From Candidatus Nitrososphaera evergladensis SR1 (GTDB taxonomy: Archaea > Thermoproteota > Nitrososphaeria > Nitrososphaerales > Nitrososphaeraceae): DNA of 64,000 nucleotides. Each line of letters starts with the position of its first letter. Within the stretch, counting starts at the first letter, position 1. The notes below the pieces were generated by a model that saw only the letters and a program-made list of their open reading frames with translations, did no database searches and was not told the origin of the DNA. Positions 8,166 through 34,608 of this stretch are shown in pieces. Position numbers and translations under genes: made by a program. The stretch covers positions 2,232,001 to 2,296,000 of the forward strand of contig NZ_CP007174.1 of NCBI RefSeq assembly GCF_000730285.1, in the 5' to 3' direction.

Positions 8166-8231
8166 CCCTTGCCACTTTCGCTAGTCCAAGTGCGGTCATC
8201 GTCTAGTTTGGTCTAGGACGCTGGCCTTCCA

Positions 8232-8249
8232 CGCGCGTTGCGCGAAGAA
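8232..8249 (+). other. tRNA-Gly intron 1 (position 37/38)
   Basis: Eighteen bases at the canonical archaeal intron site after the anticodon. The intron can form a CGCGC-GTT-GCGCG hairpin. The exact ends are set by the exon stems and could shift by one base. Confidence 0.8.
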
Positions 8250-8264
8250 AGCCCGCGACCCGGG

Positions 8265-8291
8265 ACCCAGTTTTTCAAAATTGGGCGGGAA
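8265..8291 (+). other. tRNA-Gly intron 2 (T-arm, about position 53/54)
   Basis: Twenty-seven bases split the T stem from the T loop. They contain a strong hairpin (CCCAGTTTT paired with AAAATTGGG around TC), fitting a bulge-helix-bulge substrate of the archaeal splicing endonuclease. Removing exactly this stretch restores a perfect T arm. Confidence 0.7.
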
Positions 8292-8394
8292 TTCGAATCC
8301 CGGTGACCGCACTCTCTTTTCCAATACTCGTTTGGTTGATACAAAAGCTGATCTTCCTTTCTAAAACTTGACGGACTCATCACAGAGGAGCTGC

Positions 8395-9354
8395 TTACTT
8401 CAGATTGGACCTGAGCTTTTTTCTTGGCTCCTTTGATCTGTTTCTTACGGTTGCCTCAGTCACGCCGGTAGCGTTTGCAATTTCTGCCTGCGTCCTGTAT
8501 TCGCCTGTATTACGCGATGCGACATAAAGCACGGAAGCAGCTATCACCGTCGGATCCTTGCCAACAATAAAGTTCTTCGAATTTGCTTCCTTTAGGATTC
8601 CAAGCGCCTTGCGCTTGATGTTTTCGCTGAATCCAAGGTTGTTTGCCACCTTGGCTATATACCTTACAGGGTCTGTCGCCGGGACCCTGAGGTCTAGCTT
8701 GGACACCAGCGTCCTGTAAGAGCCTGCAATATCTTTGGGCGAAACACCTGTTTTTGCAGATACGTCTTCCAGCGATCTTGGCATGTCCATTTGCCTGCTT
8801 GCGATGTAGATCGACGCAGCAAGCACAGAGTCAATGGTTCTTCCTTGAATCAACTTCTTTTTCAGGGCCTTTCTGTACAGATACGCGACTTTTTCTACCA
8901 CGGGATCGGATAGCGCCATCCTGTCCTTCATTCTTGCAAGCATGTCAAAAGCCCGCTGCAGGTTTCGCTCCGAAGGCGAGCTTTTCTGACTCCGAGCATT
9001 CCATGTCCTGAGCCTTGCCATCCTTGAGCGCACGCCGGCGTCCAGGACGTTGCCCCCGGCATCCCTGTTCGTTTTACCTATGATTGTAGATAGGTCTGGA
9101 TCTTGGCGGGCAAGCGAGACAGGCGCGCCGGTTCTTGCGCGTTCACCTGCTTTTTCGGTGCCAAAAGCGCGCCATTCTTTTTCGCCTGACAGTAAGGGGC
9201 TCTCGGAAATTACCTGGCCGGTCTTGATGTCGATTAGTTCGCCAGTTTCAGGATCAGTTACCAGGTGCCTATTTTGCAAAGAAGATGACTTTTTTTCTTT
9301 TTCTTCTTCTGGAGAAGCAGCAGATTGCGGATTCTCGGACGGATCCTCTGGCAC
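8395..9354 (-). CDS. tfb: Transcription initiation factor B without zinc-ribbon cysteines
   Basis: A 319-residue TFB. TFB bridges TBP-bound promoter DNA and RNA polymerase. Two cyclin-like repeats are clear: about residues 125-210 (VEKVAYLYRKALKKKL, VLAASIYIASR) and 215-300 (IKRKALGILKEA, VIAASVLYVASRNTG), ending in a helix-turn-helix. The B-reader region with WRAF and DLSTIIGK is kept. The N-terminal zinc ribbon is not: the segment matching LVTDPETGELI is present, but the whole protein has no cysteine. Start is GTG. It stands alone on the minus strand. It is probably one of several TFB paralogues. Confidence 0.93.
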   Translation of the reverse strand: MPEDPSENPQSAASPEEEKEKKSSSLQNRHLVTDPETGELIDIKTGQVISESPLLSGEKEWRAFGTEKAGERARTGAPVSLARQDPDLSTIIGKTNRDAGGNVLDAGVRSRMARLRTWNARSQKSSPSERNLQRAFDMLARMKDRMALSDPVVEKVAYLYRKALKKKLIQGRTIDSVLAASIYIASRQMDMPRSLEDVSAKTGVSPKDIAGSYRTLVSKLDLRVPATDPVRYIAKVANNLGFSENIKRKALGILKEANSKNFIVGKDPTVIAASVLYVASRNTGEYRTQAEIANATGVTEATVRNRSKEPRKKLRSNLK

Positions 9355-9391: not shown

Positions 9392-9976
9392 TTACAATAG
9401 CGTCTTTTTGAATAGCCACGGTCTCAGCAATCTTGTGACAGACGGCATGACGACGTAGGTCATCAGCAGCACCATTATGGCGACCACTACAAGCGTCCTG
9501 AACTGGAATGGAAGATCCTTGGTGGCTAGCTGTATCTGTGGAACCAAGATGCTTAGGAGAACGAAAATAACTGCACCTGTCACCATCGCCATTTTGTAGC
9601 GCGGTGGCACCGCCAAGCTACCGCTACTTGGCGTGAACCAGAACTCAAGACCCGTTTGCATCTCGACCTTTGGCTCGCCCTCGGTCACATCCCTGCTTTT
9701 TTTGAGCCATTCTTTTCTTATCTCAGACCTTTCCCATTTTGCCAGGTTTTCGTACGTGTTAAAGCGGAAGATTATGACATATTCTCGATTCAACGGTGGA
9801 TCAGACGGCCGGATTATGTGTACTCCCATGTGCCCCTCAAACTTCATGGCTTCGTGGATGATGCCGTCCATCCATTCCTCAAATTCCTTGATTCTGCCTT
9901 TCTTGGCTTTTCTGGTCACAATAACGGTCACGGGATCATTTGCGCCATGATCATTATTCTGCGGATGTGGATGCAT
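9392..9976 (-). CDS. Antibiotic-biosynthesis-monooxygenase domain with membrane tail
   Basis: A 194-residue protein. Residues about 15-110 form an ABM-type ferredoxin-like domain (VTVIVTRKAKKGRIKEFEEW, GHMGVHIIRP, YVIIFRFNTYENLAKWERS), a fold used by small heme- or quinone-oxidising monooxygenases. The rest has two membrane helices (MVTGAVIFVLLSILV and TLVVVAIMVLLMTYVVM), which put the domain at the inner face of the membrane. The histidine-rich N-terminus MHPHPQNNDHG may bind metal. Such ABM-plus-two-helix proteins are known in many microbes, without a defined substrate. Confidence 0.8.
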   Translation of the reverse strand: MHPHPQNNDHGANDPVTVIVTRKAKKGRIKEFEEWMDGIIHEAMKFEGHMGVHIIRPSDPPLNREYVIIFRFNTYENLAKWERSEIRKEWLKKSRDVTEGEPKVEMQTGLEFWFTPSSGSLAVPPRYKMAMVTGAVIFVLLSILVPQIQLATKDLPFQFRTLVVVAIMVLLMTYVVMPSVTRLLRPWLFKKTLL

Positions 9977-10193: not shown

Positions 10194-10616
10194 CTATTGC
10201 TGCCTCATCAAGATATCATCGGGCGTTCTTGGCTTTCCGTCCTTAAAGACGGTTGTAGGCATATGCCTCATTGAAAAGGAAGCGGCGGCAAGCAACACCG
10301 GCTCGAATTCTTTACCCAGATCCGTCAGCCCGTACTCCACCCTGATTGGAGAGTCCGATACGATTTGCCTCCTGACAATTCCAAACCGTTGAAGCTCTCG
10401 CAGGCGTTCTGTGAGAACCTTTGGCGTTATGCCTTCTATATTTTCCAGAAAACGGTTAAACTGCGTTGTGCCTCTGAGCAGTTCCCTTATTATTAGAACG
10501 GTCCATCTTTTTCCTATGATTTTAAAAGTCGTTTCAATCGGGCAGGACTTTAGTTCAGGCATGTCATAAACGGCTTCCATTATCATTGAACATTCTTTAT
10601 CGCTCATTCTTCCCAT
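10194..10616 (-). CDS. HxlR-family winged-helix regulator
   Basis: A 140-residue DNA-binding protein. The family signature is plain: CPIETTFKIIGKRWTVLIIRELL, then TQFNRFLENIEGITPKVLTERLRELQ and the wing IRVEYGLTDLGKE. HxlR proteins bind as dimers and often respond to oxidants or aldehydes through the conserved cysteine near the N-terminus, present here. The gene is divergent from the membrane protein at 10689, with 72 bases between starts, so that gene and itself are the likely targets. Confidence 0.92.
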   Translation of the reverse strand: MGRMSDKECSMIMEAVYDMPELKSCPIETTFKIIGKRWTVLIIRELLRGTTQFNRFLENIEGITPKVLTERLRELQRFGIVRRQIVSDSPIRVEYGLTDLGKEFEPVLLAAASFSMRHMPTTVFKDGKPRTPDDILMRQQ

Positions 10617-33644: not shown

Positions 33645-33682
33645 ACTTACCAGATAAGGTTGCAATGACGTACTTGGTAAGT
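33645..33682. repeat. Inverted repeat before the pirin gene (ACTTACCA / TGGTAAGT)
   Basis: Two perfect 8-base arms, 22 bases apart, lie just upstream of the TTAAATAT box (33697-33704) of the pirin gene. They have the shape of a regulator binding site. A separate 10-base palindrome CCTGTACAGG is at 33619-33628. Confidence 0.45.
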
Positions 33683-33720
33683 TATTACTACTGTAGTTAA
33701 ATATCCTGGCTCCCATTATA

Positions 33721-34608
33721 ATGGCAGATATGACAATTAGAACCGTCAAGAAAATAGTAAACAGCGTCGCAACAATGGAAGGCGAAGGCTTTCTCGTCCA
33801 CAGGTCGTTTCCCACCAACGCATTGATGCAGTTTGACCCGTTCCTGCTCCTTGACGAGATGGGTCCAAAGGAGTACGGGCCGGGAGAGGCCAAGGGCGCG
33901 CCGGACCACCCCCACCGGGGCTTTGAGACTGTCACCTACATGCTTGAAGGAAAGTTTCAGCACAAGGACTCTAACGGCAACTCGGGCCGGCTTGGACCCG
34001 GCGACGTGCAGTGGATGACTGCAGGAGCAGGCGTGGTGCACTCGGAAATGCCGGAAGAAGAGTTCGCAGACGCAGGAGGGCGCCTGCACGGGTTCCAGCT
34101 GTGGGTCAACCTGCCAAAACGCGACAAGATGGCCAAGCCCCGCTACCAGGACATTTCTGCGTCAAAAATACCTGTCGCAAGTACAGAAGGTACAAGCGTG
34201 CGCGTCATAGCAGGTGAGGCGCTTGGCAAAAAGGCAGTTATTGATACGCACACGCCCATAGTGTACCTGCATTACACGTTAAAGCCGGGCGCCAGGGTCG
34301 AGCAGGAGGTGCCCCGCGACTATAACGTGTTTGCGTACGTGGTCGAAGGCGAGGGCGAATTTGGAGAGAAAGAAAAGAAGAAGAAGGCAAAGCGCGGCCA
34401 GATGGCGATATTTGAGCGCGACGGCGACAGCGTGTCGATAGCTGCTCCAAAGGACGCGGCGTCGGACCTGAGCGTGCTTTTGATAGGCGGAGTCCCGCTC
34501 GGCGAGCCAGTTGCCCGGTACGGGCCGTTTGTCATGAACACGCAGGACGAAATCTATCAGACCATAGAAGACTATCGTGAAGGGAGGTTTGGCAGGATCG
34601 GCGTTTAG
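33721..34608 (+). CDS. Pirin-family cupin protein
   Basis: A 295-residue two-cupin protein. The N-terminal metal site is DHPHRGFETVTY plus GVVHSEMP, giving the three histidines and the glutamate that bind iron in human pirin. Bacterial and human pirins act as quercetin dioxygenases or redox-sensing cofactors; the archaeal role is open. The TATA box spacing allows a leaderless start at ATG 33721 or ATG 33730. The gene overlaps the convergent patatin gene by four bases. Confidence 0.9.
   Translation: MADMTIRTVKKIVNSVATMEGEGFLVHRSFPTNALMQFDPFLLLDEMGPKEYGPGEAKGAPDHPHRGFETVTYMLEGKFQHKDSNGNSGRLGPGDVQWMTAGAGVVHSEMPEEEFADAGGRLHGFQLWVNLPKRDKMAKPRYQDISASKIPVASTEGTSVRVIAGEALGKKAVIDTHTPIVYLHYTLKPGARVEQEVPRDYNVFAYVVEGEGEFGEKEKKKKAKRGQMAIFERDGDSVSIAAPKDAASDLSVLLIGGVPLGEPVARYGPFVMNTQDEIYQTIEDYREGRFGRIGV

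Follow-up and report, generated by a model that had tools for sequence, protein, structure and literature searches.

The zinc ribbon of TFB and TFIIB is generally taken to be an invariable component of archaeal and eukaryotic initiation. Other members of the family are known to depart from the canonical plan: the truncated TFB3-type co-activators of Sulfolobus are without the B-reader and the second cyclin repeat, and human Brf2, a TFIIB-family factor tied to oxidative stress, senses redox via a cysteine. Loss of metal ligands from an archaeal basal factor has been described for TFE alpha/beta of Haloferax volcanii, in which the Cys ligands have been replaced by Ser, Ala or Thr and the protein still folds and functions (PMC5861453). 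In Bacillus, a nitroreductase is among the genes controlled by HxlR/DUF24 regulators, which sense quinones and thiol stress (PMC6943732).

In this study, we describe a TFB that contains no cysteine, encoded within a 64,000-nucleotide stretch of the Candidatus Nitrososphaera evergladensis SR1 genome (hereafter the window; the genome is a single contig of 2,954,373 bp). The protein shares with canonical archaeal TFB and eukaryotic TFIIB the two cyclin repeats, a B-reader/linker segment (altered in its motif), the TDPxxGExI hairpin and the helix-turn-helix of the second repeat, but differs in having no zinc ligand, no cysteine and no Pfam zinc-ribbon match; by fold it is homologous to TFB, yet it lacks the zinc ribbon with four Cys/His ligands. 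Unlike the Sulfolobus co-activators it retains the linker region and two cyclin repeats, and unlike Brf2 it has no cysteine through which to sense redox. Haloferax TFE is a precedent, as an archaeal basal factor with degenerate metal centres that works (PMC5861453), but it is a different factor that keeps one Cys and weak zinc binding, and it is a lineage-wide replacement, whereas the cysteine-free TFB exists beside normal TFBs and, in six of seven genomes, has the promoter element of a stress-type regulon. The YodB, CatR and HypR electrophile regulons of Bacillus resemble that regulon in gene content (a nitroreductase) and in having an HxlR-type regulator (PMC6943732), but they are bacterial and include no initiation factor, and the archaeal regulator is represented by candidates only. 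We did not find a published description of a cysteine-free TFB in the open-access literature.

A clade of TFBs without zinc ligands

The features of the gene and its product are as follows.

8395..9354, (-): coding sequence of the cysteine-free TFB, 319 aa, GTG start; the alternative later start is a TTG at residue 26
9205..9264, (-): zinc-ribbon remnant, residues 31-50, LVTDPETGELIDIKTGQVIS (alignment and AF2 strands)
9085..9105, (-): residues 84-90, QDPDLST, changed from the near-universal B-reader/linker motif HDMGLST (alignment)
8680..8982, (-): first cyclin repeat, residues 125-225 (Pfam, PDB matches, AF2)
8419..8679, (-): second cyclin repeat, spanning residues 226-312; it includes the helix-turn-helix for promoter recognition, VTEATVRNRSKEP (Pfam, PDB, AF2)

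A first-pass annotation made from the sequence alone had described a TFB with no cysteine that had lost all four zinc ligands and kept both cyclin repeats, the B-reader and part of the ribbon. The cyclin repeats are indeed intact, with two stretches matching PF00382 (TFIIB cyclin repeat; 6e-38), and no zinc-ribbon model in Pfam matches the protein, even at E<=1. Its relatives in the PDB are Pyrococcus TFBc and human TFIIB, with 1d3u and 1ais among the matched entries, and the best Foldseek matches are TFIIB and TFB, with human Brf2 (4roc) and related entries also matched. The open reading frame encodes zero cysteines and the former ligand columns are occupied by S23, L26, D42 and T45, the first two just upstream of the remnant. 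The description of the B-reader holds for the relatives of this protein and not for the protein itself: the motif RTGxPxSLARHDMGLST is largely present in six orthologues, each of which keeps HDMGLST, but the window member reads RTGAPVSLARQDPDLST, with H84, M86 and G87 changed to Q, P and D in this member only. The window member may thus be specialising or drifting. Neither a mis-annotated start nor a frameshift can conceal the cysteines, because the frame upstream of the GTG holds only four codons (YRNT, none of them Cys) and the position of the second-knuckle CxxC sits within an unbroken reading frame; the possibility that a corrected N-terminus or sequence would restore them is further contradicted by the six cysteine-free orthologues.

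Alignment with paralogues and related genomes, proposed at the outset as a check on whether the loss is conserved, demonstrated that it is clade-wide. The six orthologues, all in Nitrososphaera (genomes G001, G005, G006, G009, G011 and G016), share 50-60% of aligned residues with the window protein. All seven proteins are free of cysteine over their whole length and substituted in all four zinc-ligand columns. They form a clade with 100/100 support in a maximum-likelihood tree of 71 TFBs. In a search of 70 family genomes the seven score 532-581 bits, compared with at most 425 for every other TFB, and all seven family-level cysteine-free matches belong to one genus (g1). A survey of 398 genomes taken from the phylum added none; independent losses elsewhere would escape both searches. 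An origin in a virus or mobile element was rejected, as viral contigs in IMG/VR contain no relative of this TFB. The 59 aligned canonical TFBs all retain three or four ribbon cysteines; compared column by column, C42 and C45 are present in 59/59 and C23 and C26 in 55-57. Seven other TFB genes were found in the window genome, each with at least three ribbon cysteines, and the published count for this species is at least nine (PMC4084955). The cysteine-free state is a conserved trait of single origin, under selection.

Two observations concern TFBs outside this clade. In a canonical subclade (L002, L019, L021, L022 and L023, from G000, G017, G003, G004 and G015, respectively), the first ribbon Cys alone is lost, to V or I, and a CKH or CRH motif is present in which His possibly serves as ligand instead. 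Two very divergent, Cys-containing TFBs of the window genome sit on long branches of the tree (L007, G000:C1:360676-361527; L008, 1692359-1693279).

A promoter element shared with redox-type genes

The first functional clue to the cysteine-free TFB is given by a promoter element. Six of the seven genes carry in their upstream regions the sequence TRCTACYN4TTAAAT (T[AG]CTAC[CT]N4TTAAAT), itself preceded by two palindromes of the CTTAC..GTAAG kind, one resembling CTTACC..GGTAAG and the other resembling CTTACTWAGTAAG. The element is absent, within one mismatch, from all 72 other TFB ORFs, and its shuffled rate is 7e-5 per upstream region. The exception among the seven is the window's own TFB gene, which does not have the element upstream. 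Start codons mostly fall 24-30 nt downstream of the initial T in TTAAAT, a spacing that matches leaderless archaeal promoters and also establishes that the orthologues have short N-termini. The exact element gave 30 matches in 18 genomes of the genus compared with 3 for the reversed pattern, and its upstream half gave about 42 exact matches across the family compared with 3; a looser operator scan allowing 2 mismatches performed little or no better than its control. Elsewhere in the window, the pattern scan of the window genome located the element in front of a pirin gene.

33646..33702, (+): promoter element, CTTACCAGATAAGGT ... CTTGGTAAGTTATTACTACTGTAGTTAAAT, upstream of pirin
33721..34608, (+): pirin gene behind the element

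In the remainder of that genome the element precedes a second pirin and a nitroreductase, the latter located at G000:C1:638000-641500 (L155).

Within the genus, the genes downstream of the element encode two pirin families, luciferase-like monooxygenases, luciferase-domain proteins, nitroreductases, a Rieske protein, the cysteine-free TFB and an HxlR regulator that starts at the element. The readable targets outside the genus are mostly pirin, together with one DsbA-like protein, and in another genus (g5) one recurrent element site has no downstream gene. The element also occurs in genomes that do not encode the cysteine-free TFB (G017, G004 and G015). Since it precedes pirin there, we rejected the idea that it is a private BRE of this TFB. 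Its family-wide occurrence, including genomes without the factor, indicates that the regulon is older and wider than the cysteine-free TFB, which joined later. The factor was apparently added late to a regulon of redox/electrophile type; it is a target of that regulon, and an effector role is not implied. The gene content of the regulon would point to both its inducer and its regulator.

HxlR-type regulators with or beside the element are candidate regulators of the pirin regulon in Nitrososphaeraceae (L157, G003:C215, near 12367; L136, G014). Tiny ORFs of 31-35 codons also lie behind the element (L135, G013; L153, G017), with starts at the expected spacing. They end alike (..AARE and ..EARE) and are possible small proteins of the same regulon.

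The ribbon remnant and competing explanations

The ribbon segment said to survive in the window protein is kept across the clade as TDP[ED]TGE..I....G.V, with T33, D34, P35, T37, G38, E39, I41, G46 and V48 invariant in the seven. Over residues 31-50, nonsynonymous change is 0.00-0.27 per site compared with 0.40-0.99 (near-saturated) for synonymous change, a constraint equal to that on the cyclin core, which has w of ~0.07-0.20 for comparisons with finite dS. The remnant is under purifying selection. AF2 places strands at residues 31-33, 40-42 and 48-50 of the window protein (pLDDT ~56) and three short strands at the ribbon of the CRAIB_MAG52 orthologue (pLDDT ~63); confidence in this three-stranded ribbon is weak, and metal-free folding cannot be shown from such models. 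The clade-wide loss, the conserved hairpin and the modestly supported model fit the earlier suggestion that the protein is an alternative TFB and its ribbon metal-free.

The explanation we favour, tentatively, is that these proteins are alternative Nitrososphaera TFBs whose hairpin docks without metal and which can be used when thiolates are damaged. All four zinc ligands and the usual cyclin-domain cysteines would have been lost in one ancestral event, with the N-terminal hairpin retained and probably able, without metal, to fold and to dock on RNA polymerase; the cyclin core would bind TBP and promoter DNA in the normal way. The gene would then have been recruited, in most species, to the redox/electrophile-type regulon of pirins, nitroreductase, luciferase-family flavoproteins and HxlR regulator. 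The presumed benefit is a protein with no thiols or zinc-thiolates open to alkylation, oxidation or nitrosylation, so that initiation might continue, or be redirected, while ordinary zinc-ribbon TFBs are impaired. The single origin, conservation and purifying selection of the trait and, for six of the seven genes, the membership of the promoter in the regulon are observations; from the conserved hairpin, the redox-gene company and the thiol-free protein together, we infer an initiation factor resistant to such chemistry. That the gene usually shares its promoter element with detoxification and redox genes suggests that the factor operates while thiols are being attacked; soil ammonia oxidisers make NO and handle much copper. 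It is possible, though doubtful, that the protein goes further and serves as a zinc-free, thiol-free general initiation factor held as a stress spare, induced when electrophiles, oxidants or NO destroy ordinary TFB ribbons and then carrying initiation; if so, the basal machinery of these archaea would itself undergo a change of chemistry. An indirect parallel comes from AOA biofilms, where each of the three species tested shows a rise in at least one TFB and in a nitroreductase (PMC12448741). A conserved, ligand-less paralogue offers a direct test of whether zinc is needed for docking, and its promoter company suggests one specific reason why soil ammonia oxidisers might keep many TFBs.

The main rival, unlikely in our estimation but deserving of attention, is a repressive or dominant-negative TFB, whose core would occupy TBP-promoter complexes while the metal-less ribbon recruits no polymerase, shutting chosen promoters in stress. 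That the ribbon is an established contact of the polymerase dock (PMC7865254), that ligand loss takes away a known stabiliser of its fold, and that the B-reader/linker motif of the window member is also changed would all fit such a role. A pure repressor would not need a conserved ribbon surface, yet that surface is under purifying selection, as is HDMGLST, conserved in 6/7 members. We give a similarly low likelihood to an alternative TFB with its own promoter set, in which docking without metal would be incidental, either neutral or zinc-sparing, and thiol resistance irrelevant. AOA have many TFBs with condition-dependent expression (PMC4084955; PMC12448741), and clade-specific changes, evident in the alignment, extend into the core. 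Avoidance of cysteine outside the ribbon is also not significant: the tree-based expectation is 1.2-2.2 Cys gains on the branches of the clade, with a probability of none of 0.30-0.11, and selection against cysteine protein-wide was rejected on this count. This reading leaves aside that the gene shares its element with redox/electrophile-type genes, as no other scanned TFB does.

It is improbable that the ribbon still binds metal through Asp, His or Ser, as D42 and the nearby H30 of the window member might suggest, since the ligand columns vary across orthologues (S/V/A, L/Q/A/V, D/S/R and T/S) with no conserved His/Asp/Glu set, and in some members only ~9 residues precede the hairpin. A decaying duplicate or sequencing artefact is scarcely credible despite the long branch and unusual substitutions of the window member, and is already refuted for the clade as a whole, given the same state in six further assemblies, full-length frames with w ~0.1 and a promoter element kept in 6/7 members.

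Gene neighbourhood

Two further genes, transcribed in the same direction, precede the window TFB.

9392..9976, (-): gene for an ABM-like membrane protein, directly upstream of that for the TFB
10194..10616, (-): gene for a regulator of the HxlR family, upstream of the ABM gene; its link to the TFB is uncertain

In G001 the ABM orthologue adjoins the TFB orthologue with the order swapped, and in G001, G005 and G011 a pirin orthologue lies upstream of the cysteine-free TFB on the same strand. We found no fixed operon, with pirin adjoining the gene in three orthologues and ABM in two. A role of the HxlR gene as dedicated partner of the TFB is unsupported, as it has a close orthologue (90%) in G017, a genome without the cysteine-free factor. 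Just downstream of the TFB gene, at 8194-8312 (+), is a tRNA-like sequence, uncalled by ARAGORN and Rfam, with a possible intron in the anticodon loop.
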